Source of the DNA: Melioribacteraceae bacterium
Lineage (GTDB): Bacteria > Bacteroidota > Ignavibacteria > Ignavibacteriales > Melioribacteraceae
Assembly (NCBI GenBank): GCA_021739765.1
Contig: JAIPBD010000001.1
Coordinates: forward strand, 62,001 to 126,000
Length of the DNA stretch: 64,000 nt
Direction: 5' to 3'
The first letter of the stretch is position 1, and every line of letters begins with the position of its first letter. The notes beneath the pieces are model-generated. The model was not told the origin of the DNA. It searched no databases and was given only the letters and a program-made list of their open reading frames with translations. Shown here in pieces: positions 12,222-33,461 of the stretch. The position numbers were made by a program, and so were the translations under genes.

Positions 12222-12570
12222 TTCACAAAAAAAACCGGGATCAAGAAAAAATGATGTCAGGGCGAAAAAAAATGACTCGAGGGCACAAAAAAATGATACA
12301 ACGGCACAAAAAAATCACTCAAAGTCATAAAAAAATAGCATTGCGTCACAAAAAAATCACTCGGGGTCATAGAAAACCGTATCGAGTCACAAAAAAATCA
12401 CTCGGGGTCATAGAAAACCGTATCGAGTCACAAAAAAATCACTCGGGGTCATAGAAAACCGTATCGAGTCACAAAAAAATCACTCGAAGTCATAAAAAAC
12501 CGTATCGCGTCACAAAAAAATCACTCAGGGTCATAAAAAAATGGTATTGCGTCACAAAAAAATACTCGGA
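12222..12570 (+). repeat. Tandem array of about 21-bp units with 41-bp higher-order repeat
   Basis: About sixteen units of 20-21 bp, head to tail. There are two alternating types: CACAAAAAAATCACTCGGGG-like (21 bp) and CATAGAAAACCGTATCGAGT-like (20 bp). Units are regular from 12284. From 12347 to 12469 three 41-bp dimers are identical, so this part was amplified most recently; the flanking units are more diverged. A poly-A core of seven A's recurs every 20-21 bp, i.e. about two helical turns, which would favour DNA bending. There are no spacers, so it is not a CRISPR. Confidence 0.9.
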
Positions 12571-12732
12571 GGGCAAGTACCACTCCATGCCCTTGCGTTC
12601 GTGTAATCCTTCCCGAAGTTTTGTTTATCCAAAATTGGACGGTGAAAAGAAGATAGTGACATGGAAATGGTGGTTTAGATAGGTTGTGTGCTGAGTTTAT
12701 GTTTCAAAGCGTCTGTTTTGCCAGCCGGGGCA
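12568..12732 (+). repeat. Dispersed structured repeat, copy A
   Basis: One of five related + strand copies of about 165 bp (others at 13223, 15855, 31999 and 33279). Shared blocks are a G/C-rich hairpin at the left end (here arms GGGCA and TGCCC), CGTGTA, CGAAGTTTTGTTTATCC, AAAATTGG, GGTGAAAAG, GATAGTGACATGG, AAATGGTGG, AGGTTGTGTGC, TTTATGTTTCAAA and GCCAGCCG. It has no coding potential. Copy A directly abuts the 21-bp array; diverged array-like units reappear just after it (12739-12778), as if it had inserted into the array. Confidence 0.8.
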
Positions 12733-12930
12733 TAGTATCATAGAAAATGCATCGGGGTAAACAAATGGTATTTCCTCACCGGAAAATGATAAGCCGGAAA
12801 TTTGCGGGGCATTACAAAGTCTTATTTTTTGATTTCTTACTCTTGTATAGTAAATAATTCTTAAGTATCTTCAATCCGATTTTCAATTATTCTAAGAACA
12901 AAAGATTTCAACTCTTTTTAACGGGATAAA

Positions 12931-13140
12931 TTGACCGCATCAAGCAAAATATTAAAAGCCTCGAATTTACTTGACCAAGTAAGAATCTCATTACAAAGAA
13001 ATCGCTACAGCCCCAAAACAGAAGAAACTTATACTAAATGGATTAGTCTATTTTTTCTGTATAACGGAATTAATGCATTGATAAATGAGGAAAAGAAGCA
13101 TAGAGTTCTCAAGATTGTAGTACCCACTGCTTGGTTTTAA
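12931..13140 (+). pseudogene. Integron/phage tyrosine-recombinase relic (N-terminal part)
   Basis: A 69-codon frame opening with TTG. Residues 12-45 match the N-terminal SAM-like core-binding domain of IntI/XerC-type recombinases: LLDQVRISLQRNRYS, then KTEETYTKWISLFFLYNG. IntI proteins have LLDQ(V/L)R...YS..TE..Y..W...F..FHG at the same place. The frame ends after 69 residues, whereas a whole recombinase has over 300. Beyond the stop, fragments such as KNGIAWIR and, in another frame, LKGFHGHTIILYS (about 13150-13218) may be the decayed catalytic end (ENGIDIRT...LLGH...YTH), but this is weak. No catalytic residues survive in frame. Confidence 0.65.
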
Positions 13141-13222
13141 CATCCGGTTCAAAAACGGTATTGCATGGATAAGATGTTGTAATTAAAAGGTTTTCACGGA
13201 CATACTATTATTCTTTACTCGT

Positions 13223-13390
13223 AGGCCAAGGACCACTCCTTGCCCTCGAGCTCGTGTAAAGACTTATCCAAAATTTGGATCATCCAAACTTGGATGGTGA
13301 AAAGAAGATGGTGATATGGAAATGGTAGTTAAGTTAGGTTGTGCTGAGTTCATGTTTCAAATCGTGGGGCTTTGACAGCCGAGGACAATT
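13223..13390 (+). repeat. Dispersed structured repeat, copy B
   Basis: The second copy of the family. The left hairpin has arms GGCCAAGGA and TCCTTGCCC (8 of 9 pairs) around CCAC. The centre contains two short palindromes, ATCCAAA/TTTGGAT and ATCCAA/TTGGAT. The right part has TGGTGATATGGAAATGG, TTAGGTTGTG, TTCATGTTTCAAA and TTTGACAGCCGAGG. A continuation GTGATTTGGCTAAC at 13416-13429 matches the right-hand ends near copies D and E, with about 25 extra bases intervening here. It precedes the barrel gene at 13447. Confidence 0.8.
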
Positions 13391-13446
13391 TATGAGATGG
13401 CACCCACGGAACGTAGTGATTTGGCTAACAAAAAAGTGAGTAAATA

Positions 13447-14085
13447 ATGAAGCTCGAAGTCTTTTCTCGGTATTATTCTTTTGCGATTATTCTTTTATGT
13501 TGCTCATTTACCCAAACATTCGCTCAGCCAAATATTTACATTTTCGGAATGGGGGGCGGGAATTATATTCCAATGAAAAACTTTGCACATTTTTTAAATG
13601 AATTGCCAAATCATAAAATTGATGAAATTGGATTTAATGGCAGCGTAGGAATAAAATATGCTCCATCAGCTAATCATATATTTTTAATTAGTTCTGAAAT
13701 TATAAATAAAAATGCTTCTTTTTCCGGAGGTTTTCTTGGTGCTACTTGGAATTTTAATGTAATCCCTATTGCAATCGGTTATCAATATTTATTTTCAAAC
13801 GAGGAGAGTAATTTCAGACCCTTCACCGGAATTAATATTTCATATTCATTCATCGAGATAGAAGGTGAGTATTATAGCGATACGCCTCCAACACCAAACG
13901 ACTTTACAAAAAGGAATAAATTTGGAATAGAACCAAACTTCGGATTCAATTACAAATTAGTCGAGAGGTTTTTCCTAGTTACTGAGATTAAATATAGATA
14001 TATGAGTGATATAGAGTTTTGGGGTAAAGATGTAAATCTATCCGGATTAATTGTAAATGCCGGTTTTCAATTTGGATTACTATAA
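13447..14085 (+). CDS. Outer-membrane beta-barrel protein (porin-like)
   Basis: A 212-residue protein with a signal peptide (IILLCCSFTQTFAQ, ending near residue 26). About eight alternating strands follow, of the small Omp beta-barrel type (VGIKYAPSANHIFLISSE, FLVTEIKYRYMSDIEFW), ending in FQFGL. It lies inside the repeat island between copies B and C. No partner gene is adjacent. Members of this broad family are often annotated as OmpW/OmpX-like or PorT-like barrels; I cannot assign a ligand. Confidence 0.7.
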   Translation: MKLEVFSRYYSFAIILLCCSFTQTFAQPNIYIFGMGGGNYIPMKNFAHFLNELPNHKIDEIGFNGSVGIKYAPSANHIFLISSEIINKNASFSGGFLGATWNFNVIPIAIGYQYLFSNEESNFRPFTGINISYSFIEIEGEYYSDTPPTPNDFTKRNKFGIEPNFGFNYKLVERFFLVTEIKYRYMSDIEFWGKDVNLSGLIVNAGFQFGLL

Positions 14086-14339
14086 AACCATTTATCCCGA
14101 GCCTCAAAGTGTCTGCCTGTTTAGATCGGCAGTTTTGTGATTTCTGAAATTGTGTTTTAGTTGATGTTTTTGTTCAGGGTATTCGTTCTAATTAATAAAC
14201 TTGCCTCCGGTGCTTACTGAGTGAGTTAAGCACCTACGGCTTAATCATCAGCATGTGTGTTTTACTCGGTTTTCTTGTTATTGTTGACGGGTTAACCGCA
14301 AGGCAGTTGGGCATCTAATTTCTGCTAAGAGGTAATTTA
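14086..14339. other. Intergenic, inverted repeat only
   Basis: No gene is seen. A short inverted repeat, TTAAGC/GCTTAA around 14225-14243, and a palindrome GGTTAACC near 14290 are present. A GTTGGGC heptamer at 14306-14312 fits the integron core-site pattern GTTRRRY, but no matching RYYYAAC partner is found in the preceding 200 nt. Confidence 0.4.
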
Positions 14340-15830
14340 ATGGAATTAAAAAAGCACAATTCAAAATTCAATTCTCCGAAACAGTCTGTTAAAATTGGTT
14401 TAGGTTATTTAATCTTTGGTGTTGTACTCTTACTCTTTTCAGGTGGGAAATGGAACATTCCCATTGCTTCCTGGTTAGCTCCTGTGTTTTTCATTCGTTT
14501 TTCTCGCGGGCAAAGACCATTAATCGGATTTATAATAATTTTGCCGGTAAGCTCACTTATAGCAATTATAACCTGGGAAGGATTAATACCTGTTCAGGGA
14601 CCTCCGTATTATGTAATACACATAATCGGCGGTTTATTTACAGCATTGACTTACCTGATAGACCGTTTAGTTGCTACTAGAATTAATAATTTTTTATCCA
14701 CATTAATTTTTCCACTTACATCCGTTGCATTCGGATTTCTGCATATCTCAACCAGCCTGTATGGAGCTAACGGATCACTTGCACTCACCCAGAATAATTT
14801 GCTTTTTCTTCAAATTCTATCGATTACCGGAATGTGGGGTGTAATTTTTCTTATTACCTGGTTCGCTTCATTTATTAACTGGATTTGGGAGCGTAATTTT
14901 AAGTTTGAATATGTGCGAATCGGAACAATTGTTTACATCGGAGTTATGGTTTCTGTCTTTTTATTTGGAATTATTCGGTTATCCTTTTTCCCTCCTAATT
15001 CCGAGACCATACGGATTGCTTCTATTTCATCAAAATTGCCTGATCCCGATCTTCCAACAAATGATCAAAGCTGGGATGTATTTAAAAATGAGTCGTATAA
15101 AAAACAGACTGAAATACTTGCTCTAAGTAAAAAAGCTTCTATTGTAGGAGCCGAAATTGTTACCTGGCGCGAGGGGGAAATTTACATATTAAAAGAAGAT
15201 GAAACTGAATTTGTAAAACAGGGAAGCAAATTAGCAGAAATGCAAAATATGTTTTTGGGAATGTCTATCGCTGTATTTACTAAAGATTTTCCAAATGTAT
15301 TAGCCGAGAATAAAATTGTATGGATTGATACAACGGGAACTATCATATTTGAATATTTTAAGGCACTTCCCACACCCACAGAAAAATGTGTTGCCGGAGA
15401 CGGAGAAGTTAAGATGCTAAATTATTCCAAAAGTAAGATTGCATCAACAATTTGTTTCGATCTCGATTTTCCCAATTTTATAAGCAAATTTGGGAGAGAA
15501 AAGATTGATATTATGCTAAGTCCCGCAAATGACTGGTATGCAATAGCCAGAATTCATCCTCAACAGGTTTCTTTCCGTGCGATTGAAAATGGTTTTTCAT
15601 TAGTGCGTCCAAATCCGAATTTCGGACTCGCCACTGCATTTGATTATCAAGGCAAAATGATCTCTTATGTTGACTTCGAAAAAACAAAAAATGAAATTAT
15701 GATTTCTGATGTTCCAGTTAAGGGCGTTAATACAATCTACAATATTATTGGAGATTTTTTCGCCTGGATAAGTTCAATAGGAATAGTACTTATAATTATA
15801 ATTGTAATATTTAGCAAAAAAAACACATAA
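14340..15830 (+). CDS. Apolipoprotein N-acyltransferase-like (Lnt/nitrilase fold)
   Basis: A 496-residue protein with six or seven membrane helices in residues 15-220. A nitrilase/carbon-nitrogen-hydrolase domain follows at about 225-465, and then one C-terminal helix. The candidate Glu-Lys-Cys triad is Glu in GAEIVTWREGEI, Lys in EYFKALPTPTEK and Cys in ASTICFDLDF (about residue 371). This is the architecture of Lnt, which adds the third acyl chain to lipoproteins. The periplasmic domain is divergent from classic Lnt (no YRKxHLVPFGEY-like run), so the acceptor could differ. It sits in a repeat island between copies B and C and may be an accessory paralogue rather than the housekeeping Lnt. 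Confidence 0.75.
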   Translation: MELKKHNSKFNSPKQSVKIGLGYLIFGVVLLLFSGGKWNIPIASWLAPVFFIRFSRGQRPLIGFIIILPVSSLIAIITWEGLIPVQGPPYYVIHIIGGLFTALTYLIDRLVATRINNFLSTLIFPLTSVAFGFLHISTSLYGANGSLALTQNNLLFLQILSITGMWGVIFLITWFASFINWIWERNFKFEYVRIGTIVYIGVMVSVFLFGIIRLSFFPPNSETIRIASISSKLPDPDLPTNDQSWDVFKNESYKKQTEILALSKKASIVGAEIVTWREGEIYILKEDETEFVKQGSKLAEMQNMFLGMSIAVFTKDFPNVLAENKIVWIDTTGTIIFEYFKALPTPTEKCVAGDGEVKMLNYSKSKIASTICFDLDFPNFISKFGREKIDIMLSPANDWYAIARIHPQQVSFRAIENGFSLVRPNPNFGLATAFDYQGKMISYVDFEKTKNEIMISDVPVKGVNTIYNIIGDFFAWISSIGIVLIIIIVIFSKKNT

Positions 15831-15854
15831 TCTATATATAAATTTGGAATTATT

Positions 15855-16022
15855 GGGAGTGGAAGGACGATTCCTTCCCCTTGAGTTCGTGTATTCTTTT
15901 CCGAAGTTTTGTTTATCCAAAATTGGTGGTGAAAAGGAGATAGTGTCATGGAAATGGTGGTTAAGTTTGGTTGTGTGCCGAGTTCATTTGTCAAAATGTG
16001 GGCTTTGAGAGCTGAGGAAAGT
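15855..16022 (+). repeat. Dispersed structured repeat, copy C
   Basis: The third copy. The left hairpin is perfect here: GGAAGGA and TCCTTCC around CGAT, although its sequence differs from copies A, B and E, so base pairing is retained while bases change. Later blocks are CCGAAGTTTTGTTTATCC, AAAATTGGTGGTGAAAAG, GAGATAGTGTCATGG, TGGTTAAGTTTGGTTGTG, TTTGTCAAAATGTGGGC and TTTGAGAGCTGAGG. It begins 24 nt after the Lnt-like gene. Confidence 0.8.
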
Positions 16023-16492
16023 TATAATTTTTTGGATCGTGATTATGATCATTTCACGTAAGGAATCCTTAAACCAAAACATATAAAAATGGCCGCGATG
16101 AACTAAAAGTCGGTTTTATTCTCTCCTGTAATCCTTCATAAAAAAAACTAAAGTGGTTCTTCGAAATTTGGTATCGACAATAATTGCATGAATCAATTGG
16201 CGAATTCGTGTACTGATGGATTTATTGTAAAATTAAAGTGAAAATGCCCAATCCCGTGTTTGTGAATTCCAACTTTTCGTAAAGAATGGAGTTTTTGGTT
16301 TCACTCATTCACTTTGCGGCTTGTGAGTAACATCACATCCGATTTAAGTGAATTGCGCATTTAAAAGTGTTTTTGCATAACTTCAAACACTTTGGTAAGA
16401 TTTCGATTATCAACAAGTTATTATTTGCTTTTCGAGCGTCCCCTCCATATTCAGCTAAGTATCTATAAAGGCTTGCTAAGAAAGGTGTTGTG
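16023..16492. other. Intergenic, no gene seen
   Basis: About 470 nt with no convincing frame. The only short frame, on the minus strand at 16333-16518, overlaps the start of the kinase gene and has no recognisable similarity. A weak AAAGG Shine-Dalgarno for the kinase sits at 16481-16485. Confidence 0.4.
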
Positions 16493-19400
16493 ATGGCAGC
16501 TAAAAATAAACCTGTCACGAACGGTAAAAGGAAATTTGTCTGGCTCTATGTAGTAATTGCTGTAATCTTTACAATATCGGCATATTTTTATTACCGAGAG
16601 GAAGAAACGGTACTAATCAAGCAGAAACAGAGTGAGCTTGAATCAATTGCCAAACTTAAAATAAACCAGATATCTAAATGGTATTCGGATGAAAAAGTAG
16701 ACGCGGAGATACTCTCTCACAACACATTCCTAATAAGGGAAATTCAGCAAACACTTCTAACCGGGGAACCAAGCTCATTTGATGCGCTGACCCAAGTCCT
16801 TCAAAACATCAAAGTCGAACATGACTACGCGGATATTATTTTAACAACTCCGGATGCGGAGCTAATTACTTCGACAAATCCATCTCTAAAAAACCTAGAC
16901 AGTAGTTTAAGTCAAAAAATATTTGAAACTACGAATTCAAATAAAATAGTCGAATTAGACTTTTTTAGATCAAATTCATTAGGCGATAAAATATTGTTAG
17001 GCTTTATAGCCCCAATCAGAACTGAGATAAACGCAGAGCAGTTATCAATTACTTTTCTGATTGATCCAGAGGATAATATATACCACTCAATAAATCACTG
17101 GCCTGTAACAAGCACTACATCCGAAACATTCTTTTTCCGTATTGAAGACGGCAGTATTATTTACTTAAATGAATTAAGACACAGGAAAAATACGGCATTA
17201 GAGTTTGTGTTACCTATGTCACTCAGCCACTTGCCGGCAGCAAAAGCTGCAGAGGGGTATACCGGAATTTATAGAGGGAAAGACTACCGAAACGTAAATG
17301 TTGTTGCTTACGTTTCCGATATTCCAAAAACCAATTGGTATATTGTTGCCAAAGTTGATGAACGAGAACTTTTTGCCGGACTATTTGCCAGGATGATGGC
17401 GCTTAGTCTTATTGTTTTGCTGTTGATGATTATAACAGGTATCGGACTTTATTTAATTTATTCAAACCGACAAAATAGTTTAACAAAGAGGCTATATAAA
17501 AAGGAGAAGGAATTATGGAGACAGCAGGAGAAATTTAGGATTACGATGGACAGCCTCGGTGAAGGAGTAATAACCCTTGATGTTGACGGTAAGGTGCAAT
17601 ATCTGAATAATATGGCCGAAGATTTAACCGGGTGGGACTTAAGGAGTGCAAGAGGGCATGACTTACATGAGGTTTACCAAATAAAAAATGAGCAAACGGG
17701 TTTTAGAGAAAACAACATTTTAGAAAAAATATTGAAGTACGGCCTTGTAAAAGAATTAGCTAACCACACAATCCTTATAACGAGAGATGGACGAGAAATA
17801 CCGGTTATTGATACGGGTGCCCCTGCTTATGATGCGGACAGCTCCATTATCGGAGTGTCTATCGTATTCCAAGATGAAACAGAAAGGCGCAAGCAGGCAA
17901 GAAGGATTAAAGACAGCGAGGAGAGGCTTCGCTCTACTTTGGATGATTTGATTGAAGGTTGTCAAATAATCGGTTTTGATTATGAGTATTTGTATTTGAA
18001 TAAAGCAGCACTCGTGAGCAGCAGAAAAACAATCGAAGAACTGATGGGCAATTCTATGGTGGAATGTTATCCCGGAATAGAGAATACTGAAATGTTTAGC
18101 AAGCTGAAAAATTCTATGGAGACACGGGAACCGATAAATTTTGAAAATGAATTTGAATACCTTAATGGTGAAAAAAGAATTTTCAATTTACGCTTTGAGC
18201 CTGTTCCTGAAGGGCTTTTTATACTTTCCGAAGATATTACAAACCTGAAATCCGCACAGGATTTTATCGTAAGACTTAGAATGGGCATAGAACTTTCAGG
18301 TGAAGCGGTTTATTTAACGGATGTAGATGGAGTGATAACTTATGTAAATCCCGCCTTTGAAAAAATATTTGGTTATTCAAAAGAAGAAGTGATTGGGAAA
18401 ACACCTCGTGTCTTACAGTCAGGAACCCAATCTATAGAGTTTTATGAAAACTTTTGGAAAGACTTAATCGCAAATAAACCCGTTAATTGCGTGATTATAA
18501 ATAAGACAAAAGACAACCGGCTGATTTATATTGAAGCATCCATCAATCCGATAAATGATGAAACCGGGAAAATTGTGGGATATCTTGCAATTGAGCGAGA
18601 TGTAACCGAACGTAAACTATCCGAAGAAAAACAGAGGCAGCTTACAACTATTTTGGAGGCAACACCGGATTTTGTTGCTATCGCGGATAGCAACGGGAGT
18701 CCAATTTTTACTAATACAGCGGGGAAAAAAATGTTGGGGTTAGCTGCTGATTTTGATGAAAAACAAATTTCTATCGCGGAATCCCACCCGGAATGGGCAA
18801 GAAACATAGTCCTCGAAGAAGGAATACCAACTGCTGCCAAGGAAGGAATATGGAGAGGCGAGACGGCACTATTGCATAGAGATGGATCCGAAACCCCAAT
18901 TTCGCAAATAATTGTCGCACATAAATCGGCTGATGGAGTGGTAAAATATTTTTCAACAATCGGTCGGGATATTACAGAGCGAAAACTATATGAAGAAGAG
19001 CTGATAGAAAAAACTACTTTGTTAGAATCATTTTTTCAAAATACCTTGACTTCAATCGCGTTGCTTGATAAAAGTTACAATTATATCAGAGTAAATGAAG
19101 CTTACGCAAACGCAGAAGGTCGTACTGTTGATTTCTACATCGGCAATAACCATTTTGATCTTCATTCCGACGACACAAAAGAAATTTTTAAAGAAGTTGT
19201 GAAATCAAAAACGTCTTATTACACAATAGAAAGACCATTTTTTGATATGAATAATTCCAATCGAGAAATATCATATTGGGATTGGAGCCTCGTACCGCTG
19301 TTGGACGTTGAAGGGGAGGTTGAATCACTGATATTTACTTTGCTGAATGTAACAGATAGAGTAAAATCAAAAGAAAAATTAATGAAGAATGAAAAATTTC

Positions 19401-20914: not shown

Positions 20915-21085
20915 ATACCCGAGCTATTAAATCATGTGCAAGTGGAAAGGTGAGTTCAACATCACCGATGTAGCAATCCGATTAACCACTCGAAATCGTT
21001 TTCTGATTGATGAAAATACCGGATCTTAATTTTCAATTAAAGTAACTGTGAAAATCCGATAAGCTGTTTTATATAAAAGAATTTG

Positions 21086-21172
21086 CGGAAAGAGAGGGAT
21101 TCGAACCCTCGATACCCGTGAAGGTATACACGCTTTCCAGGCGAGCCAGTTCAACCACTCCTGCACCTTTCC
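21086..21172 (-). tRNA. tRNA-Ser (GGA anticodon)
   Basis: Read on the minus strand the sequence folds as a class II tRNA. The acceptor stem GGAAAGG pairs with TCTTTCC (one G-T pair) and the discriminator is G. The anticodon loop is CTGGAAA with anticodon GGA, and the T arm is GAGGGTTCGAATCCCTC. There is a long variable arm of the serine type (GTGTATACC...GGGTATC). CCA is not encoded. It reads UCC/UCU codons. Confidence 0.95.
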
Positions 21173-21343
21173 TCAAAATTTTAGATCACCAATATAACAT
21201 TTCTAATCTGAAATTTGAACAGATCATTTCATTTATTCCGATAATTGATTGAAAATATAAGCTGTTTTTGAAATTCAAGTAAAGGATTGCAAAGTAACTC
21301 TGGTCAAATTTATTCCATTTTGAATTGTCGTAGCAAATAGATA

Positions 21344-21375
21344 TTTCACTTATCGTATAATGATTACTATATTTG
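21344..21375 (+). promoter_or_regulatory. Candidate tatA promoter, Bacteroidota type
   Basis: TTTC at 21344-21347, 20 nt, then TATATTTG at 21368-21375, a full match to TAnnTTTG with one mismatch in the upstream element. It lies about 55 nt upstream of the tatA start. Pattern-based inference. Confidence 0.4.
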
Positions 21376-24276: not shown

Positions 24277-25524
24277 ATGAAATTAATATTAACTTTAATA
24301 TATCAACCCCACCAAAAAAATAGATTGCTCGCTCTTAAATTCTTTCTAATTTTTGCATTCATTTCAACATTAACATCGAATGGCCAAGTTGTAGTAAAAT
24401 CTGTTGCATTCGGCGGTTCAAGTTATGGAAGTGCTTTCCCGATTGCACCAATCACAATTGAAGCTGATGTATCCGCAAATGAGAAACCCGATCTTTCAAT
24501 TATCTTTCGATTTTGTGACGAAAACTGGAGACCTTACGAGAATTTTTTCCTTGAAAATACAGGTTTCAACAAAGATCATGAAATATGGTTAACAAATCTT
24601 CCCGTTTCAGTGTCAGGTGCTTCTTATCATTTTTCTAAATCCTTTCCGAATAAAAATGTTACGTTCCCGTTTCCTGGCAAATGGATGTATTTTATTGTTG
24701 ATAGATTTGATGAGGCAAAGATCTATTACTCCGGAGGATTTTTTGTAACCGCCAACGAAGTGAGATTAATAACCGCTGTTAAAAAGGAAACATTAATCGG
24801 CAGTACCGCACTGCAAAATACCGAGGGACGTTCCCAGAAATTAACTATTGATTTTGAACTTCCTGATGAATTGTTTTATAACAAAGTGTCGCATATTGAA
24901 GTAGTAGAGAACAGAAAAATTTATAGTCCTATTAAACTAGATACGGAAGAGTTTGATAATTTGAGATACTACGAGTTTGACGGATATAAAGGATTTTCAT
25001 TTGTTGTGAGAGATTTATACCCTGGAAATAATTACAGACAAACGGATTTGCGAAATTCAAAAAGATTTATTGAGCCGGATGTAAAAGCACAAATTGATAT
25101 GTACGAAACCTCGAGATACTTTCGACCCGGAAAACGTGACATGAACGGCAGTTTTAAACTTATGAACGATCAGAATCCGGAAGCTGACTATCTAAATGTC
25201 GAATTTACTTTAAGTCCTGATATAGACCCTGGGGATCGTGTATTTATCGCCGGTTCATTTACCGATTGGCTCGTTCTCCCTGAATTCGAGTTATTTAAGG
25301 AACAAGGTATTTATAAGCGCGTAATCGAATTAAAAAGGGGAATCTATGACTATCAATACGTAGTTTTGACAAGCGGATTCTTAGATTGGTATTATCTCGA
25401 AGGAAATTTTTGGGAAACGGAAAACTCCTACAGTATTTTTCTTTATTACAATTCTGACGAAAATGGCGGATACAAAAAAATGATTGGATACAAAAACATA
25501 GCCGGTGCAAATGCAAAAGATTAA
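24277..25524 (+). CDS. DUF5103 / T9SS plug-like protein
   Basis: A 415-residue protein with an N-terminal hydrophobic signal (FFLIFAFISTLTSNGQ). The arrangement is that of DUF5103, which in type IX secretion organisms includes the plug protein that seals the SprA channel: a beta-sandwich with YGSAFPIAPITIE and FRFCDENWRPYENFFLENTGF, a central strand region, and a C-terminal CBM48-like part (RVFIAGSFTDW, GIYDYQYV). The presence of a T9SS sorting domain elsewhere in the window is consistent. It is the first gene of an envelope operon with an oxidoreductase, a lipoprotein and an LptD-like barrel. Plug identity is an inference from fold and length. Confidence 0.7.
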   Translation: MKLILTLIYQPHQKNRLLALKFFLIFAFISTLTSNGQVVVKSVAFGGSSYGSAFPIAPITIEADVSANEKPDLSIIFRFCDENWRPYENFFLENTGFNKDHEIWLTNLPVSVSGASYHFSKSFPNKNVTFPFPGKWMYFIVDRFDEAKIYYSGGFFVTANEVRLITAVKKETLIGSTALQNTEGRSQKLTIDFELPDELFYNKVSHIEVVENRKIYSPIKLDTEEFDNLRYYEFDGYKGFSFVVRDLYPGNNYRQTDLRNSKRFIEPDVKAQIDMYETSRYFRPGKRDMNGSFKLMNDQNPEADYLNVEFTLSPDIDPGDRVFIAGSFTDWLVLPEFELFKEQGIYKRVIELKRGIYDYQYVVLTSGFLDWYYLEGNFWETENSYSIFLYYNSDENGGYKKMIGYKNIAGANAKD

Positions 25525-26500
25525 AATCGGGGTTATCGGAACGGGGCATCTCGGGAAACTTCATACAAATTTTTTAAGCAAAAGTGAATTTGCAGAATTT
25601 ATTGGTGTATACGATTCGGATGCCGACCTTGCGAACAGTGTCGCAACCGAATTTGGAACAAAGTCGTACGAGAGTTTTGATAAATTACTGGATGAAATCG
25701 ACGCTGTTTCGGTCGCTGCCACTACAAGCGCGCATTATAAATTGATGAAAGAAGCACTCGAAAAGAATGTTCATGTTTTTGTCGAAAAACCGATTACTTC
25801 AAAAGCAAAAGAAGCTGAAGAAATTGTGGCGCTTGCCGAATCAAAAAATTTGAAGATTCAAGTCGGTCATATCGAGCGATTTAATCCGGCAGTTCTCGCG
25901 ATTGCAAAATATATTGATAATCCGACATTCATTCAGACTGATAGATTGGCTCAATTTTCAACTCGCGGAACCGATGTAGCGGTGGTTCTGGATTTGATGA
26001 TCCACGATATTGATTTGATATTGAGCTTCGTTAAAAGTCCGGTAAAAGAAATTAAAGCGAACGGTGTTGCGGTTGTTTCCGAAACCTATGATATTGCGAA
26101 CGCACGAATTGAATTTGAAAATGGCGCTGTCGCAAATGTTACCGCGAGCAGAATCTCTCAAAAGAAAATGCGCAAAATGAGGATTTTCCAGAAAGATGCT
26201 TATTTGTCCTTAGATTTTACAACCGGTACTCCCGAAGTTTACCGGATTGTTGGTGACAAATCAGAACTTGCCGAAGGACACATTTCATTCGGATCGATGG
26301 GAACGGGTACAAGAAAGAAAAATTTAATTTATCTTCAACCGGAAATTGAAGAAATAAATGCGTTACAATATGAATTGGATTTATTTCTTAAATGTATAAT
26401 TAACAAAGAAAACCCTACTGTTTCAGGCAAAGATGGATTGGAGGCATTAAGGGTAGCACGAATAATTGAAAGTATAATTGAGGAGAACCAAATAACATGA
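25511..26500 (+). CDS. Gfo/Idh/MocA-family oxidoreductase
   Basis: About 329 residues. The N-terminal Rossmann fold has GVIGTGHLGKLH, followed by HVFVEKPITS, which carries the EKP catalytic motif. A C-terminal alpha/beta dimerisation domain has VGHIERFNPAVLA and HDIDLILSF. These NAD(P)-dependent enzymes act on sugars or sugar nucleotides, and UDP-N-acetylglucosamine 3-dehydrogenase-like members occur near LPS genes. ATG 25511 is used, so the gene overlaps the DUF5103 stop; GTG 25505 would add two residues. It is coupled by four-base overlap to the next lipoprotein gene. The envelope context suggests a role in surface glycan synthesis, but the substrate is not shown. Confidence 0.85.
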   Translation: MQKIKIGVIGTGHLGKLHTNFLSKSEFAEFIGVYDSDADLANSVATEFGTKSYESFDKLLDEIDAVSVAATTSAHYKLMKEALEKNVHVFVEKPITSKAKEAEEIVALAESKNLKIQVGHIERFNPAVLAIAKYIDNPTFIQTDRLAQFSTRGTDVAVVLDLMIHDIDLILSFVKSPVKEIKANGVAVVSETYDIANARIEFENGAVANVTASRISQKKMRKMRIFQKDAYLSLDFTTGTPEVYRIVGDKSELAEGHISFGSMGTGTRKKNLIYLQPEIEEINALQYELDLFLKCIINKENPTVSGKDGLEALRVARIIESIIEENQIT

Positions 26501-27099
26501 AAAAAATAATTTTATCGGCGTTATTAATTGTCGGTTTGTACGGTTGTAATGTTGTAAAACAAATGCAGGAAGATTTTTCCAAACTGAAATTCAAAATTCA
26601 TTCAGTTCAAGGTGTAAACTTAAATTCAATGAACCTTTCCGATAAATCAAAATTTAGTGATTTCGGCGCATTGGAAATCGTGAAGTTAACATCAATGCTT
26701 ACCAGCGGTAAAATGCCGATGAAATTTACGGTAAATGTTGAAGCCCTAAATTCTAACAAAATGGTATCAAGCTACACAAGCTCTATGATCAGAATAAAAT
26801 CATTTCCTTTTACGCTTTTACTTAATGACAAAGAAGCATTCAAGGGAAATATCAACGAACCGATTGAAGTTCCGGGTGGTGGCGAATCAACTTTGTTTCC
26901 TGTTGATGTAGAATTTGATTTATTAAAATTAGTTAATGACCAAGGCTTGAGCGAAATTGTAAATCTTGCACTTAAATTGGGTGGTCAACAAGGTTCACCG
27001 GCTAATATTAAAGTAGTTTCACGACCTGTTCTGGATACTCCCTTGGGAGAATACCAATATCCGAGTGAACTCACAATTGTAAACACAACATATAATTAA
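26497..27099 (+). CDS. Lipoprotein, LEA-14-like
   Basis: A 200-residue protein with a lipoprotein signal (LIVGLYGCN, lipobox Cys near residue 17). The following beta-rich domain resembles the LEA type-2 fold: IHSVQGVNLNSMNLSD, KFTVNVEALNSNKM, PFTLLLNDKEAFKG. It starts inside the stop of the oxidoreductase gene (ATGA overlap) and is followed after about 54 nt by the LptD-like gene, so it is probably an envelope accessory protein. The domain call is tentative. Confidence 0.7.
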   Translation: MKKIILSALLIVGLYGCNVVKQMQEDFSKLKFKIHSVQGVNLNSMNLSDKSKFSDFGALEIVKLTSMLTSGKMPMKFTVNVEALNSNKMVSSYTSSMIRIKSFPFTLLLNDKEAFKGNINEPIEVPGGGESTLFPVDVEFDLLKLVNDQGLSEIVNLALKLGGQQGSPANIKVVSRPVLDTPLGEYQYPSELTIVNTTYN

Positions 27100-27153
27100 T
27101 CTGAAACTGATTAGTTCAGTTGCGGTATAAAGCTTACTTAATATTTTTGGTTG

Positions 27154-29763
27154 ATGAAGAATTCTACTTTTATAATTTTTTGCTTATTGTCAAAATTAAT
27201 TTTTGCACAAGTTGATTCTTCATCAACCGGTCTTTCTAATGATCTTAATTTCACTGATTCCTTAAACACACTTCAAGATTCATTGTCGGTTTTTGCCGAT
27301 TCCACAATCACCCCAAAAAGGAAATCTGATGTAGACGCGATAATTTATTCGTCATCAAAAGACTCTTTAATTTTTGATGTGAAAGATAAAAAGCTATTTA
27401 TTTACGGCACCGGTGAGCTGAAATATAAAAATACCGAACTTAATTCCGGCAAAATTGATCTTGATTTTACAACGAATGAATTATTTGCCGAAGGAAGAAT
27501 GGATTCGGTAAAAGGAGAATACGTTGAAATTGAAACTCCAAAACTTGTTGAAGGATCGGAAAACTATGAAGGGTATAAGATAAAATATAACTTCAAAACC
27601 GCTCAAGGTTTTATCTCAATGGCGAAGAATTCGAAAGAAGATAAATCCTATCGTGGTGATAAAGTTAAGAAAGTTAACAAGGATGTATTTTTTATTGAGG
27701 ATGGAATTTATACAACGTGTCAGGCAGATACACCCCATACTTACTTTACTGCTGATGAAATGAAAGTAATCAAAGATGAATTTATTGTCGCAAAATGGAT
27801 ATTTATGCATGTCGGTGGAGTACCGATTCCCATTCCGATTCCATTCGGAGTTTTCCCGAATGAAACCGGAAGACGTTCCGGGATAATTATTCCTTCTTAT
27901 GGCTCCAACGATTTACGCGGACAATATTTTAGAAATTTTGGCTACTATTTCGCGCTTTCAGATTATTACGATCTTACGCTTAACGGAGATTATTATTCAA
28001 AAGGTGGTTATGGTTTTAGGGGAAGAGCGAGATATAACAAACGGTATGAGTTGAGTGGAAATATTAACGCCGGGTATTCAAAAATAATTTATGGCGAGGA
28101 TTCCGATCCGGACAGAAGTGAGAGGGTTGATTGGAATATTGGAATAAATCATAATCAGACTTTTGATCCGACTATGCGGCTTGTCGCAAATCTTCAATTC
28201 CAATCCTCGACCTATTTACAAAACAATAGTAATTTTTTGAATGACCAGCTTACCAGAAACGTAACTTCAAACGCGACATTGAGCAAAAGATGGGATGAAT
28301 CGGGAAACAGCCTAACCGTAAACTACAGTCGTACACAAAATCTTGAATCCGGAAACATCACCGAGAGTCTCCCAAATGTTAATTTTAACATGCCGGTAAG
28401 TTATCCGTTTAAATCAACGGCGTCTCAACGGGATCAATCTTGGTATGAAAAAATGGGATTTAATTATTCGGCTAATTTCAAAAATCAACGAAAAAAGACC
28501 GATGGTGAGTTAAAAATTAGAGGTGGATTCAGGCATTCTATTTCATCCAGTTTGTCTCCAAAAATCGGATATTTTAATATTTCCCCGCGATTCGGATATT
28601 CGGAAAAGTGGTATAATAAACGAATTAAACGAACAAATTATCTCGTTGAAGAATTTGATGAGTTTGGAGCTGTGACGGGATATAAAGACACTGTGGTAAC
28701 GGATGATATTCACGAAATTAACGCTGTCCGAACTTTTGATTTCTCCCTTTCGGCATCAACTAAATTGTATGGAACAATGCAGCCTCATCTGCTTGGTGTA
28801 GAGGCTTTTCGTCATACATTAACTCCAAGTATTTCCTACAGCTACACACCGGATTTCTCAAAAGACACTTGGGGTTATTATGATGAATATACAACTTCGG
28901 ATGGAGATGTTATTCGTTATGATAAATTCGGTAATGAAATTTTTGGTGGTGCAAGTTCCGGTGAAAGACAGAGTGTATCGTTTTCATTGGATAATATTTT
29001 CGAAATTAAAACGATGAAAGATCCCACTGATACAACTTCTCAACAGGAAAAAATACGTTTGTTAAATGTTGGTGCATCAACAAATTATAACTTTGCTGCG
29101 GATAGTTTGAAACTATCGGATTTGAGTCTTTCGTTCAGAACACAAATTGGGGAATTTCTCAATATTAATGGCTCCAGTAATTATACGTTTTACGATTATA
29201 ATGTGAATCGAAAAATCAATCAGTTTCTTGCTTCAAATGGAAAGGGATTATTAAGATTAACGAGATTTCGTTTTTCACTCTCAACTTCTATTTCCGGAGA
29301 CAAGTTAAAAGGGAAGGATGAACCCGCAGAAGAAACCGATAATGATCTCGCCAACGATCAATTTAATGAACTTCGGGATGATTTTTATATCGGTCCGTAC
29401 GATTCCGGAAACGCAGACTTTTCGATTCCTTGGGACATTAGTTTATCTTACAATTATAATTTCAACAAACCATTACCTTCAGACCCAAGTATCAGTTCCA
29501 ATTTGGGAATTACAGGTAGCATTAATTTAACGGAATATTGGAAGATTCGTTTTCGGGGAAATTACGATATCGAAAACAAAGAATTAACTGCTCCACAGAT
29601 AACGATTTTCCGAGACCTGCATTGTTGGGAAATGAATTTTACCTGGAATCCGCTCGGCACATTCAGAGGTTATAGATTCGAAATTAGAATGAAAGCACCC
29701 GACCTCCAAGATATCAAAGTTGAAAAAGCAGATCGTTTTTATTCCGGTTTTAGGGGAAATTGA
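27154..29763 (+). CDS. lptD: LptD-like LPS assembly barrel
   Basis: About 869 residues. A signal peptide (IIFCLLSKLIFAQ) leads to an OstA-like beta-jellyroll at about residues 65-260 (LIFDVKDKKLFIYG, LNSGKIDLDFTTNELFAEG). A long beta-barrel rich in Asn, Tyr and Trp strands follows, with the segment PIPIPIPFGVFPNETGRRSG at the domain boundary typical of Bacteroidota LptD. It ends in FYSGFRGN. It should insert lipopolysaccharide into the outer leaflet. ATG 27154 is preferred to TTG 27151. It is last in the envelope operon that starts with the DUF5103 gene. Some Bacteroidota carry two LptD-like proteins, so it may be a paralogue. Confidence 0.78.
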   Translation: MKNSTFIIFCLLSKLIFAQVDSSSTGLSNDLNFTDSLNTLQDSLSVFADSTITPKRKSDVDAIIYSSSKDSLIFDVKDKKLFIYGTGELKYKNTELNSGKIDLDFTTNELFAEGRMDSVKGEYVEIETPKLVEGSENYEGYKIKYNFKTAQGFISMAKNSKEDKSYRGDKVKKVNKDVFFIEDGIYTTCQADTPHTYFTADEMKVIKDEFIVAKWIFMHVGGVPIPIPIPFGVFPNETGRRSGIIIPSYGSNDLRGQYFRNFGYYFALSDYYDLTLNGDYYSKGGYGFRGRARYNKRYELSGNINAGYSKIIYGEDSDPDRSERVDWNIGINHNQTFDPTMRLVANLQFQSSTYLQNNSNFLNDQLTRNVTSNATLSKRWDESGNSLTVNYSRTQNLESGNITESLPNVNFNMPVSYPFKSTASQRDQSWYEKMGFNYSANFKNQRKKTDGELKIRGGFRHSISSSLSPKIGYFNISPRFGYSEKWYNKRIKRTNYLVEEFDEFGAVTGYKDTVVTDDIHEINAVRTFDFSLSASTKLYGTMQPHLLGVEAFRHTLTPSISYSYTPDFSKDTWGYYDEYTTSDGDVIRYDKFGNEIFGGASSGERQSVSFSLDNIFEIKTMKDPTDTTSQQEKIRLLNVGASTNYNFAADSLKLSDLSLSFRTQIGEFLNINGSSNYTFYDYNVNRKINQFLASNGKGLLRLTRFRFSLSTSISGDKLKGKDEPAEETDNDLANDQFNELRDDFYIGPYDSGNADFSIPWDISLSYNYNFNKPLPSDPSISSNLGITGSINLTEYWKIRFRGNYDIENKELTAPQITIFRDLHCWEMNFTWNPLGTFRGYRFEIRMKAPDLQDIKVEKADRFYSGFRGN

Positions 29764-30123
29764 TCGAGCAATTCGTAGTCAGGATTTAGAAGTTAGGAAT
29801 CAATTCTGAGTGTCCCGTCCCAAAATGTCACCCCGTCGTTAACCGATTCAAGCATCCCTAATAATTAATTTTCAAAGAAATTCCATTACACTTAAAATGT
29901 ACATCTTTGTTGTAAGATTTTTAGAGAACATCGGCAATAGCTAATCGGATTGCAATAAACCGCAGTTAACTACGCCATCTCAAATAAATTGACGAAGACT
30001 TTTAATTACTAAAAATCTCAATCGTGACCTTAAGGGTACGATTACCTTTTGTTAAAAAGCGTTTCCACTCGTTACAACCGTTAAATCTATTTACAAAATA
30101 TGACATCTTTTTTAAAGTAAAGT
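29764..30123. other. Intergenic, no gene seen
   Basis: About 360 nt without a convincing frame, stable hairpin or repeat. The right end leads into the glnB promoter. Confidence 0.4.
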
Positions 30124-30124
30124 C

Positions 30125-30154
30125 TTGACTTCGCATAATAATTTTGTAGTTTTG
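30125..30154 (+). promoter_or_regulatory. Candidate glnB-amt promoter, Bacteroidota type
   Basis: TTG at 30125-30127, 19 nt, then TAGTTTTG at 30147-30154, a full TAnnTTTG match, about 66 nt upstream of the glnB start. I see no sigma-54 GG-N10-GC element here. Confidence 0.5.
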
Positions 30155-30220
30155 TCACTGTTTAACTAAATAATTAATGCAAATTAACTAATTCAACTAA
30201 ATAAATTAAGTAGGTGCGTA

Positions 30221-30559
30221 ATGAAAAAAGTCGAAGCAATTGTAAGGCCTCATAAACTTGAGGAAATACAAACCGAACTAAGAGAAGCCGGATTCTCCGG
30301 TATTACAGTATCGGAAGTAAGAGGTTATGGCCGTCAAAAAGGTCATAAAGAAGTTTACCGAGGATCAGAGTACAATTTGGAGTTCGTTCCAAAAGTAAAA
30401 CTTGAGGTAGTATGTAAAGATGAGCTTGTTGAGCAAGCAATCGAAGTTATAATCAAAATTGCCAAAACCGGTGAAGTTGGTGACGGTAAAATTTTCATTA
30501 CATCAATTGAAGAAGCAATTAGAATTCGTACAGAAGAGTCGGGCGAAACCGCACTTTAA
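30221..30559 (+). CDS. glnB: Nitrogen regulatory PII protein (GlnB/GlnK), amt-linked
   Basis: A 112-residue protein, the exact PII length. The sequence opens MKKVEAIVRPHKLEEI. The T-loop carries GYGRQKGHKEVYRGSEY with the Tyr51 modification site, and the B- and C-loop motifs are TGEVGDGKIFI and IRIRTEESG. It senses ATP/ADP and 2-oxoglutarate and gates the ammonium channel. It lies 29 nt upstream of amt in one operon. A second PII gene at 57113 is about two-thirds identical (73 of 112 positions by my ungapped count). Confidence 0.95.
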   Translation: MKKVEAIVRPHKLEEIQTELREAGFSGITVSEVRGYGRQKGHKEVYRGSEYNLEFVPKVKLEVVCKDELVEQAIEVIIKIAKTGEVGDGKIFITSIEEAIRIRTEESGETAL

Positions 30560-30588
30560 TAAGTTTATTAAAAAAGGGAGTATAAATA

Positions 30589-31836
30589 ATGGAAAATGAA
30601 GTAGCTGAATTAGCGGGAACAGCATTGTTTACTGTTAATAACGTTTGGATGATGCTGGCAACAGCACTGGTTTTTATTATGCATCTCGGTTTCGCATCTC
30701 TTGAAGCCGGTTTGACACAATCTAAAAACACCGTGAATATTTTATTCAAAAACTCAATTATTCCGGGTATCGGTTTAATTACTTACGCGCTTGTCGGATT
30801 CAACCTAATGTATCCCGGTGGAGAGGGAGGCGGCTTTTTCGGATTTGCCGGATTCTTCATCTCAACTGATGCAGCGGGATTAACATCCGCTTATAGTGAA
30901 GGTTATACCTACTGGACAGATTTCCTTTTCCAAGGAATGTTCGCCGCAACCGCCGCGACAATTGTTTCCGGTGCTGTCGCTGAACGAATTAAATTATCAT
31001 CATTTCTTGTTTTTTCCACAATTTTTGTCGGTATCGCATATCCGATTACCGGAATGTGGAAATGGGGTGGTGGATTCTTAGATGCATTAGGTTTCTACGA
31101 TTTCGCGGGTTCTACTCTTGTTCACTCTGTTGGTGGATGGGGAGCTTTAACGGGTGTTATCTTTTTGGGTCCAAGACTCGGGAAATATGTAGGAAGCAAG
31201 ATTCATCCGATTCCCGGTCACAGTATGCCGCTCGCTGCAATCGGCGTATTTTTACTATGGTTAGGTTGGTTCGGATTTAACGGCGGTTCAGTACTTTCTG
31301 CCGATCCCGGATTAGTTTCACTTGTATTGGTTACAACCTCACTCGCGGCGTCAACCGGAGCAGTGGGAGCAATGCTAGCTTCTTGGGGTTATACTAAAAA
31401 GCCCGATCTTTCTATGGTACTAAACGGCATTCTTGCCGGTCTTGTGGGAATTACAGCCGGTGCAGATGTAATGTCTCCATTGGACGCGATGGTAATAGGA
31501 TTAATTTCCGGTGTGATAGTAGTTTTTGCAGTTATCTTTTTCGACAAAATTAAAATTGACGATCCAGTTGGTGCGCTTTCTGTTCACCTTGTTTGCGGTA
31601 TCTTCGGAACATTAGCAGTTGGTATCTGGGGTGATTTAGCCGGATTGGATCAGCTTTGGAATCAATTTATTGGTGTTGCCAGTGTTGGAGCCTTTACACT
31701 CATATTCACGGGAGTTTTGTGGGGTATCTTAAAAGCAACGATGGGATTAAGAGTATCAAGCGAAGAAGAAACCGATGGTCTTGATCTTGGTGAGCACGGA
31801 ATGGAAGCATATCCGGATTTCGAGAAAAATTCATAA
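30589..31836 (+). CDS. amt: Ammonium transporter Amt
   Basis: A 415-residue protein with eleven membrane helices. Visible Amt motifs are FASLEAGLTQSKNTVNI, DFLFQGMFAATAATIVSGA, FAGSTLVHSVGGWGAL (first pore His), WLGWFGFNGGS, and SVHLVCGIFGTLAVGIW (second pore His). It conducts ammonium across the inner membrane and is controlled by the adjacent PII protein. A GGGAG ribosome site precedes the ATG and a terminator follows at 31872. Confidence 0.95.
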   Translation: MENEVAELAGTALFTVNNVWMMLATALVFIMHLGFASLEAGLTQSKNTVNILFKNSIIPGIGLITYALVGFNLMYPGGEGGGFFGFAGFFISTDAAGLTSAYSEGYTYWTDFLFQGMFAATAATIVSGAVAERIKLSSFLVFSTIFVGIAYPITGMWKWGGGFLDALGFYDFAGSTLVHSVGGWGALTGVIFLGPRLGKYVGSKIHPIPGHSMPLAAIGVFLLWLGWFGFNGGSVLSADPGLVSLVLVTTSLAASTGAVGAMLASWGYTKKPDLSMVLNGILAGLVGITAGADVMSPLDAMVIGLISGVIVVFAVIFFDKIKIDDPVGALSVHLVCGIFGTLAVGIWGDLAGLDQLWNQFIGVASVGAFTLIFTGVLWGILKATMGLRVSSEEETDGLDLGEHGMEAYPDFEKNS

Positions 31837-31871
31837 ATCTTTTGTGTGAGACCTAATATAATCTCTATGTT

Positions 31872-31897
31872 AAAGCCGGGTTCTGCCCGGCTTTTTT
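31872..31897 (+). terminator. Rho-independent terminator of glnB-amt
   Basis: AAAGCCGGG and CCCGGCTTT form a 9-bp stem around TTCTG, followed by a T run. It lies 35 nt after amt. Confidence 0.92.
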
Positions 31898-31910
31898 ATT
31901 GCATTTCTTG

Positions 31911-31954
31911 CTGTCACGGTATCGAACTTTAAAACGAATCCAAGGACCATGACA
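31911..31954. repeat. 44-bp imperfect palindrome, copy 1
   Basis: Begins CTGTCACGGT and ends ACCATGACA, so the termini are inverted repeats (CTGTCA...TGACAG with the next base). Its reverse complement aligns without gaps to 33117-33160 over 44 positions, with about 33 matches. It is followed by GCCGAGAAAAG and ATTTGGCTTGCC, which matches the right end of the larger dispersed repeat. Confidence 0.6.
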
Positions 31955-31998
31955 GCCGAGAAAAGACCATTTGGCTTGCCCGCCAGAACATATGCGAA

Positions 31999-32105
31999 GG
32001 AGGGCCTGCCTGCCGTCTTTTGAATTCGTGTAGTCTTTTCCGCAGTTTTGTTTATTCAAAATTGGATGGTGAGAAGGAGATAGTGGCATGGAAATGGTCG
32101 TTCTG
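31999..32105 (+). repeat. Dispersed structured repeat, copy D (truncated, rearranged)
   Basis: Left and central parts only: GGAGGGCC, TTCGTGTAGTCTTTTCCG, AGTTTTGTTTATTC, AAAATTGGATGGTGAGAAGG and AGATAGTGGCATGGAAATGG. The usual right-hand part is missing after it, but a right-end-like segment (GACAGCCGAGAAAA...ATTTGGCTTGCC) lies just upstream at about 31951-31983, so the order is permuted. Confidence 0.7.
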
Positions 32106-32379
32106 GAAGGAGTCGCATAAACGCGTTATGTAAACTCCCCGCCCAAAAACGTTGGCGGGCAGGCGCACAAAAGCCATTTGGTAGTAAATCGTACGTTGCG
32201 TTCGTTCGTCATTCATTACGTTCCGCCGTCCTGGCTTCACTAAATTCCACTGCCTAACATCACTGCATGTGAGAAATTAAAGAAATGAGAAAATGAAAAC
32301 AGTTTATTTTTTTCAAATGAAATCCGCCCAGCAAAACGGTGGACAAGAGAAAAATGGGAAAAGAAAAACTTGAAGGATA
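32106..32379. other. Intergenic, no gene seen
   Basis: No coding frame. It holds a short inverted repeat around 32138-32162 (CCCGCCC / GGCGGGC) and a GCCTAAC heptamer near 32253. It lies downstream of the toxin gene, which is on the minus strand. Confidence 0.4.
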
Positions 32380-32646
32380 TTATAAATAATGCCCTTTAGC
32401 GGAATGAATTAATATTCTATCATCAACAACTTTATAAACCAAACGATGCTCTCTGTTAATTCTGCGTGACCAAAAACCAATAAGGTCATATTTTAGTTGT
32501 TCAGGTTTACCGGTTCCGGTAAAAGGATGTTCGGTAAGTTCTTCTAGAAGAACGAGTAACTTTTTCAAAACGGTTTTATTACCGGATTTTTTATGAAAAG
32601 CTATATCATTATCGGCTTGTTTGGAAAACTCTAAATGGTAAGCCAT
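32380..32646 (-). CDS. yoeB: YoeB-type toxin (Txe/YoeB mRNA interferase)
   Basis: An 88-residue protein matching YoeB/Txe along its whole length. The pattern includes FSKQADNDIAFHKKSGNK, LLEELTEHPFTGTGKPEQLK, GFWSRRINREHRLVYKV (conserved Glu, Arg and His of the active site region) and the terminal HSAKGHY. Such toxins cleave mRNA at the ribosome A site. It starts immediately after the antitoxin stop, the standard antitoxin-toxin order. Confidence 0.93.
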   Translation of the reverse strand: MAYHLEFSKQADNDIAFHKKSGNKTVLKKLLVLLEELTEHPFTGTGKPEQLKYDLIGFWSRRINREHRLVYKVVDDRILIHSAKGHYL

Positions 32647-32871
32647 TTAGACGCCTAAGAACTTATGTAAATCCTTTTTCTCAACTCTTTTAAAGTTGCC
32701 TTCCTCAAACTCTTGTTCACTTTTCTTAATTTTAGCAACAAACTCCGGGTTGTAAGTACTTTCCTTTGAAGAAATCTCAAATTTAATTTTAAGAGCTTGC
32801 ATAAAAGCTTTCAGGGCATTTACTTGTTCAGTTGTCTTTGGATGGGCAATAACTATATCTTGCGTTTTCAT
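32647..32871 (-). CDS. Antitoxin of YoeB-type module
   Basis: A 74-residue protein. The N-terminal half (IVIAHPKTTEQVNALKAFMQ, then LKIKFEIS) resembles the short DUF2683-like antitoxins of Bacteroidota rather than classic YefM. The charged C-terminus (KKSEQEFEEGNFKRVEK) would wrap the toxin. It is immediately upstream of the toxin and probably autoregulates the pair. Identity as antitoxin rests mainly on position and size. Confidence 0.85.
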   Translation of the reverse strand: MKTQDIVIAHPKTTEQVNALKAFMQALKIKFEISSKESTYNPEFVAKIKKSEQEFEEGNFKRVEKKDLHKFLGV

Positions 32872-32942
32872 AATGTTGACATGATTTTATTGATTGAAAT
32901 ATTGAACAAAAATATATAATAAAGGGACTATCGGCAAGTTAA

Positions 32943-33284
32943 GGTAAAATATCTCCCTCTTATGCCTGGAACGATTCACTAAAATCCAGATACAACGACA
33001 TCGGAATGCGCATACATAAAAAACACCGGGTGGGTGATGTAATAACTGATAATTACTATCTGAATGGCATTTACGGAGAGGAATTAGCTGTTTATGAACA
33101 AGGCGAATTTCGACCGCTGTCATGGTCTTCGAATTCATTTTAGGACTAAATACCATGACAAAAAATTAGGCAAAATAAAAAGAGTAAACATGTACGGATT
33201 AGGAAGAATAGTGAGCATCCATTACACAACAAATGAAACCTACGATTACAGCGTTTATCCACTAAAAGACAATTACTCGGAGGG
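32943..33284 (+). pseudogene. RHS/YD-repeat protein relic
   Basis: Two frames together read like the conserved C-terminal part of RHS/YD-repeat proteins. Frame one (from 32943) gives RYNDIGMRIHKKH, then NYYLNGIYGEELAVYEQGEF, matching the YD-repeat pattern of YYxxGxxGxxLAVY. It stops at 33141. Another frame then gives NMYGLGRIVSIHY and YDYSVYPLKDN, matching the usual continuation (YGLGLIG...YYLKDHLG). The frame break coincides with a 44-bp palindromic element at 33117-33160. The relic ends at dispersed-repeat copy E. There is no start codon or signal sequence; it is a broken fragment of a much larger gene. Confidence 0.65.
33117..33160. repeat. 44-bp imperfect palindrome, copy 2, inside the RHS relic
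   Basis: Starts CTGTCATGGTC and ends ACCATGACA. It is in inverted orientation to copy 1 at 31911, with about 33 of 44 matches, the differences being mostly transitions. It lies where the RHS reading frame breaks; removing 43 or 46 bases here would rejoin the two frames. Confidence 0.6.
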
Positions 33285-33461
33285 TGAGGACCACTCCTTG
33301 CCCTTGAATCCGAGTCAGACTTTTTTACAATTTTGTTAAACCTACATTAAGTGGAGAGAATGAGATAGTGACAACGAAAAGTTGGTTAAGCTTGGTTGTG
33401 TGCCGGGCTCATGTGTCAAAGTGTGGGCTTTGAAAACCGAGAAAAAAATAATTCCGCTAAC
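33279..33461 (+). repeat. Dispersed structured repeat, copy E
   Basis: The fifth copy, with both ends. The left hairpin has arms GGGTGAGGA and TCCTTGCCC around CCAC (7 of 9 pairs). The central part is the most diverged of the family. The right part is close to copy C: TTGGTTGTGTGCCGGGC, TCATGTGTCAAAGTGTGG and GCTTTGAAAACCGAG, extending to CCGCTAAC at 33454-33461. Confidence 0.78.

Follow-up and report, generated by a model that had tools for sequence, protein, structure and literature searches.

Repeat copies in the window

The stretch analysed here, called the window, comprises 64,000 nucleotides from a Melioribacteraceae bacterium (assembly GCA_021739765.1, contig JAIPBD010000001.1, positions 62,001 to 126,000), and carries a dispersed non-coding repeat bounded by tagged hairpins. 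Four full copies, A, B, C and E, were located within the window (Table 1), measuring 165, 166, 164 and 166 bp, respectively, from the CTCGG tag of one end to that of the other. Shared blocks among the copies were seen by repeat finding together with MAFFT alignment, and a blastn search of the source genome with copy C recovered A (E 1.3e-37), B (2.2e-30), E (3.6e-26) and D (2.9e-25). A first-pass annotation, made from the sequence alone, had reported five copies of about 165 bp on the + strand, with shared blocks and a hairpin at the left end. This was borne out for A, B, C and E, while D proved to be merely an interior piece, 90% identical to copy C across 83 bp. Copies C and E are overlapped by open reading frames shorter than 100 aa.

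Table 1. Positions of the repeat copies and related features (window coordinates unless a locus is named).
Feature	Position	Strand	Description
Copy A	12565..12729	+	complete site; left-end hairpin 12571-12592, right-end hairpin 12702-12723, right stem decayed
Integrase relic	12943..13137	+	remnant of an IntI-like tyrosine integrase (N-terminal portion), lying between copies A and B as a neighbour of the repeats
Copy B	13218..13383	+	complete site; left-end hairpin 13224-13245
Copy C	15853..16016	+	complete site; left-end hairpin 15859-15880, right-end hairpin 15989-16010
Copy D	32020..32102	+	83-bp interior fragment without either end hairpin
Copy E	33276..33441	+	complete site; left-end hairpin 33282-33303, right-end hairpin 33414-33435
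Lone right-end-like hairpin in genome G035	L119:7164-7234		

Extent of the family in the genome

The genome searched consists of 4.54 Mb in 37 contigs. With copy C, blastn found nine places in it. Covariance models were built of the right end (RE; from eight copies) and of the left end (LE; from the 20 complete sites), and each search scored 150 candidates. The RE model gave at least 23 matches at E ≤ 1, at least 21 of them below 1e-6, and the LE model at least 30 matches at E ≤ 1, at least 21 of them below 1e-5; the LE model was built from 20 of its own 21 strong matches and the RE model from eight of its 21. Among the matches listed, each of the 21 strong left ends had a single partner among the 21 strong right ends on its own strand; 20 of these pairs span 141–290 bp and one, on contig C4, spans 2.74 kb. 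The covariance search proposed in the first-pass annotation thus yielded at least 16 more complete sites rather than none, all outside the window and on eight contigs.

The 20 complete sites were distributed among C1 and C8 (four each), C4 and C30 (three each), C6 (two) and C2, C17, C18 and C31 (one each). All 20 avoid open reading frames of at least 100 aa, and a contig end lies less than 2 kb from the start of ten of them. Within each of the five clusters (C1, C8, C4, C30 and C6) every complete site has the same orientation. Two weak RE matches were inspected by eye: C6:257883 is a solo right end and C31:80307 apparently a chance match. A weak LE match on C8 (L011:360-394, E 0.06) is a composite hairpin, in which the left arm of an LE is seemingly fused to the right arm of an RE.

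Structure of the ends and interiors

The left end consists of the CTCGG tag, one base, and a 9-bp stem closed by a 4-nt loop, which is CCAT or CCAC for the most part. On the opposite strand, the right end shows the same order and mostly the identical loop. Both ends are one hairpin module in inverted orientation, with CTCGG outermost, and form terminal inverted repeats (TIRs) of about 30 bp. The LE and RE consensus sequences are identical at 23 of their 31 positions, and among 300,000 random hairpins of the same shape one reached this value; the RE consensus was made from 15 of the 20 copies, omitting B, C2, C6a, C6b and C30b, the right ends of which are shifted or longer.

Ends and interiors were compared in all 21 pairs of seven representatives and scored against simple shuffles. 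In all 19 pairs between subtypes the ends aligned (z 3.6 to 13.8), while the interiors scored from -2.4 to 2.5; in the two pairs within subtypes the interiors were related as well (z 8.9 and 4.1). The ends are thus constant, and the middles are interchangeable among several unrelated sequences.

The arms of the left hairpin change together, as had been claimed in the first-pass annotation. In the left stem of the 20 copies 90.6% of the cells are paired, and three pairs, covering ten cells, have changed on both sides. None of 500 shuffles matched the observed values of paired cells, changed cells or covariation, although 73 attained three pairs changed on both sides and 475 attained the number of pair types. 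When the partner strand was slid along, pairing fell to 41–61%. Also the inverted repeat reported near the right end is real, with 88.9% of the cells paired in 19 copies (C2 omitted).

Raw folding energy was lower on the + strand in all 20 sites, whereas the composition-corrected z was alike on the two strands (mean -2.67 on + and -2.48 on -). The interiors alone had mean z of -0.50 and -0.22, most of them folding like shuffled sequence; the exceptions, with z under -2 on one strand or both, were C4c, C30a and C30c. The units of subtype 2 (C8, C4 and C30) folded below the shuffles (z -1.9 to -5.7). Rfam matches in the window were two tRNAs and none to the repeat units, and four loci gave no match at E up to 0.1. 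No terminator-like sites were found in window positions 12500-16100. DNA hairpins fit these data better than RNA, because corrected folding is equal on the two strands and it is the ends that carry the signal.

Flanks and junctions

A paralog of the region around copy A is present on C33. It has the same 41-bp array and integrase relic and is 85% identical over the 294 bp downstream of A, and lacks copy A. In the window the 41-bp tandem array occupies 12291-12563, immediately upstream of copy A, which lies inside or beside it. On C30, the sequence before site C30a matches a different repeat that occurs on C17 (91.8% over 110 bp), and the match is cut at the left boundary of C30a.

No target duplication of constant length was detected across the 20 sites. 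The long span on C4 is preceded by a 457-bp direct repeat, 95.6% identical, the end of which coincides with the left end of the span. At this locus (L043:6094-9322; C4:176093-179321) the left end abuts a 457-bp stretch of a regulator gene, by eye Rrf2-like; the stretch recurs 934 bp farther along, the two copies being separated by a MazE/PemK pair. A pair of sites on C4 and C30 has right flanks 99.4% identical over 169 bp and different interiors, and may represent either distinct loci or strain variation captured by the assembly. The corresponding contig ends (L042:1-640, - strand; L044:9338-9996) have common flanks and a short non-coding spacer, and the interior of the last site differs.

Flanking sequence is common to neighbouring copies within C8, C30 and C6 and between C4 and C30. 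Since neighbours on C8, C30 and C6 share flanks, the uniform orientation is partly a result of local duplication. In the stretches compared, no paralogous flanks linked A, B, C and E to each other, and for most of the single sites none turned up either. Determination of orientation by replication or by genes was rejected, the sites being mixed with respect to GC skew and coding strand: those on C1, C8, C18, C31 and C4 point one way, those on C30, C6 and C2 the opposite, and C17 is neutral. In the stretches examined, the search for a presumed insertion sequence (IS) end located beside contig ends gave one uninformative match on C8. A separate 65-bp hairpin repeat follows the RE tail with the same junction in four places (L011:592-656, 8894-8958 and 9162-9226; L044:9273-9337).

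Candidate enzymes

The integrase relic reported between A and B is real and IntI-like; its matches to the integron integrase model (E 5.7e-4) and to PF13495 (E 4.5e-5) do not reach the curated cut-offs. It has a paralog on C33 and was matched in 63 of the 165 genomes of the order (source genome included). No link between the relic and the repeats was demonstrated. IntI-like integrases are common in the order (e.g. loci L110-L116), several of them close to contig ends. The TIGR02249 model had 13 matches in the source genome, none above the cut-off, and matches below the cut-off occurred also in 14 of 14 control genomes. Tyrosine recombinases are present in the genome, none above the integron cut-off, and a functional IntI was not found there, only relics.

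Classical attC sites have ends of the RYYYAAC/GTTRRRY type. By eye, no R-box or classical attC core was seen at the repeat ends, unlike the integron-like loci of relatives and of C33, where classical-looking attC ends were seen. The C33 locus (L109; C33:33000-45000, - strand) has a second IntI-like relic; upstream of it lies the 41-bp array also seen in the window, and accessory genes follow. Its attC-like ends lie, by eye, near 4460-4430 and 2530-2500, and the locus has the look of a decayed integron in the same genome.

Genes of Y1 transposases (Y1_Tnp) were found in three places, two of them with an internal stop. The intact gene (L064:1-2100, on C9) is situated amid copies of a different palindromic repeat. 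That the repeats are repetitive extragenic palindromes (REPs) of a resident REP-associated tyrosine transposase (RAYT) was rejected for the three Y1 loci, which by eye are flanked by other palindromes. The 2.74-kb span on C4 was likewise rejected as an autonomous parent: it holds no transposase, and encodes MazE and PemK/MazF-like proteins, part of the duplicated regulator gene and an FkbM methyltransferase. The accessory genes between sites include toxin-antitoxin and GNAT genes and others.

Distribution beyond the genome

In 58 relatives, blastn with copy C gave a single match, in G031, read as coding and due to chance. The RE model found four other genomes at E ≤ 1e-3 (G031, G035, G043 and G083) among the 165 of the order. 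By eye, G035, which belongs to another family, has the sole convincing RE-like hairpin outside the source genome. Among 392 genomes of the class (source genome included, overlapping the order set), G035 was the only other genome at E ≤ 1e-4, under stricter filters that recovered 13 of the 21 matches in the source genome. A DNA pattern of the RE hairpin was found in three stretches of 84,980 species genomes, taken as chance on a rough estimate, and in no viral contig. Copy C had no match in plasmids and phages. The search of related genomes advised in the first-pass annotation produced one convincing, lone hairpin. A literature search turned up no description of the family, which is no proof of absence.

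Comparison with known systems

REPINs and REP doublets are associated with RAYTs (PMC3116915, PMC3733652), and the repeats resemble them in being short palindromes that bear an unpaired tag and stand in inverted pairs, extragenic, with a spacer less conserved than the palindromes (PMC3116915, PMC3733652). The REP tags described there fall into the super-families GTAG and CGTC (PMC3733652); the CTCGG of the repeats is neither. Further differences from the REPINs described are the low copy number, the longer spacers of several unrelated kinds, and the enzyme: no resident Y1 gene bears the ends of the repeats, and a RAYT or TIRYT gene flanked by the module was not found.

The TIR families of TIRYT tyrosine transposases have inverted ends, some of them self-complementary, as the repeats do, and they occur also as dimers or clusters away from the gene (PMC3733652). 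This likeness is one of description; unlike in those families, no transposase flanked by the repeats' ends was found. By description also the pneumococcal BOX elements are similar, being nearly restricted to one lineage and thought parasitic (PMC3049150). With integron attC sites the repeats share palindromes of variable length, arrays near accessory genes and an IntI-like relic nearby; an attC site as described forms one imperfect palindrome (PMC9024848), whereas each repeat has a separate hairpin at either end and, by eye, lacks R-box ends. The layout of BOX is modular, boxA-B-C: the outer modules are constant and the middle variable, as in the repeats, with repeated middle units. The interiors of the present repeats are, unlike these, unrelated to each other.

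Origin of the repeats

The best reading of the repeats is a new family of a known kind of element. We give a probability of roughly 0.5 to a family of small mobile elements, non-autonomous and restricted to one lineage, that resemble REPINs or palindrome-ended miniature inverted-repeat transposable elements (MITEs). Paired ends, interchangeable interiors and one case of presence/absence are observed. The first-pass annotation had offered a MITE, a small RNA or a recombination site of a cassette system; a MITE-like element fits best because of the conserved inverted ends, the interchangeable interiors and the presence/absence in comparison with the paralog, while the RNA is disfavoured and the cassette site weakened. 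The one-to-one pairing of the ends, their agreement at 23 of 31 positions, the repeat cut at C30a, the left-stem covariation, the avoidance of open reading frames of at least 100 aa and the equal corrected folding of the two strands also speak for a mobile element. An enzyme acting in trans would recognise the two ends, excise or copy the unit and insert it elsewhere. Most likely it would be a single-strand transposase of the HUH/Y1 type, which is favoured by the tagged-hairpin signal and by the lack of any observed target duplication of fixed length. Local duplication and recombination between copies would then have made the same-orientation clusters and swapped the interiors, and the enzyme would have been lost from the assembly or gone unrecognised, the copies now decaying; the order of these events is one that we infer.

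Several results weigh against a mobile element of this kind. No transposase was found between any of the LE–RE pairs recovered in the genome, and no LE or RE was found at the three Y1 loci among the matches listed; a divergent or unassembled RAYT/TIRYT gene is possible. The exact insertion point of copy A is blurred by the degenerate array, leaving presence/absence without a clean empty site. The check for target-site duplications suggested in the first-pass annotation found a junction direct repeat at one of the 20 sites (C4a, 16 bp), of no fixed length among sites, and three of 334 control flank pairs (from different contigs, some sharing sequence) scored as high as C4a; old copies may have lost their target duplication. 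The same-orientation clusters are unlike what independent insertions predict. Finally, the right stem had no pair with compensatory change in the 19 copies, and the selection on structure claimed earlier finds support in the covarying left hairpin alone.

The rivals were ranked with a MITE derived from a DDE-type IS ahead of cassette sites or simple duplication, and these ahead of RNA. Such an ordinary MITE, the internally deleted remains of an IS with self-complementary TIRs that is moved by its parent's transposase, is unlikely, though it deserves to be kept in view: it agrees with the 30-bp TIRs, the short non-coding units and the lineage restriction, but not with the absence of a constant-length target duplication at 20 sites, nor with the failure to find in the source genome a parent whose transposase is enclosed by LE and RE, and simple deletion from one parent would not yield unrelated interiors. 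Spread of an old, immobile repeat solely via segmental duplication and homologous recombination would explain the shared flanks on C4/C30, within C8 and within C6, and the duplicated C1/C33 region. It is improbable given the constant ends with unrelated interiors and the lack of paralogous flanks noted above. A multicopy structured RNA, either a small RNA or a cis-acting element, could account for the left-stem covariation, the folding of subtype 2 and the lower raw energy on the + strand. With corrected z equal on both strands, interiors averaging close to zero, no Rfam match or terminator-like site, and orientation to the coding strand mixed between contigs, we consider it very improbable.

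On a further view the repeats are recombination sites, of attC-like or new type, between which an integrase swaps gene cassettes. This would be in line with the one-orientation clusters, the accessory genes found between sites (toxin-antitoxin, GNAT and others) and the IntI-like relic beside A and B. The view has little to recommend it when the ends lack the RYYYAAC/GTTRRRY type by eye, copy A is present or absent without any gene, and local duplication already accounts for some of the uniformity in orientation. There is a slim chance of an undescribed cassette platform, the enzyme of which would recognise tagged hairpin pairs and exchange sequence inside or between them. It would explain the interior swapping at near-identical flanks (C4c, C30c), the one-way arrays with toxin-antitoxin cargo, and the 16- and 457-bp direct repeats ending at the boundaries of C4 sites.

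For the REPIN- or MITE-like family, the restriction of conservation to the ends of a new tagged-hairpin unit points to the ends as a recognised signal. If the enzyme is found, the family would test whether Y1-type transposases move paired tagged hairpins that belong neither to the GTAG nor to the CGTC group; otherwise it is one further lineage-specific genome parasite.

Another palindromic module

Also another palindromic module, composed of a tag and a hairpin whose loop is about 25 nt long, is present in the window in two copies (31903-31960, - strand; 33116-33160, + strand). In opposite orientations, they flank copy D together with a YoeB-type toxin gene and its DUF2683 neighbour. Relatives of this module occur on C5, C6, C14 and C33.

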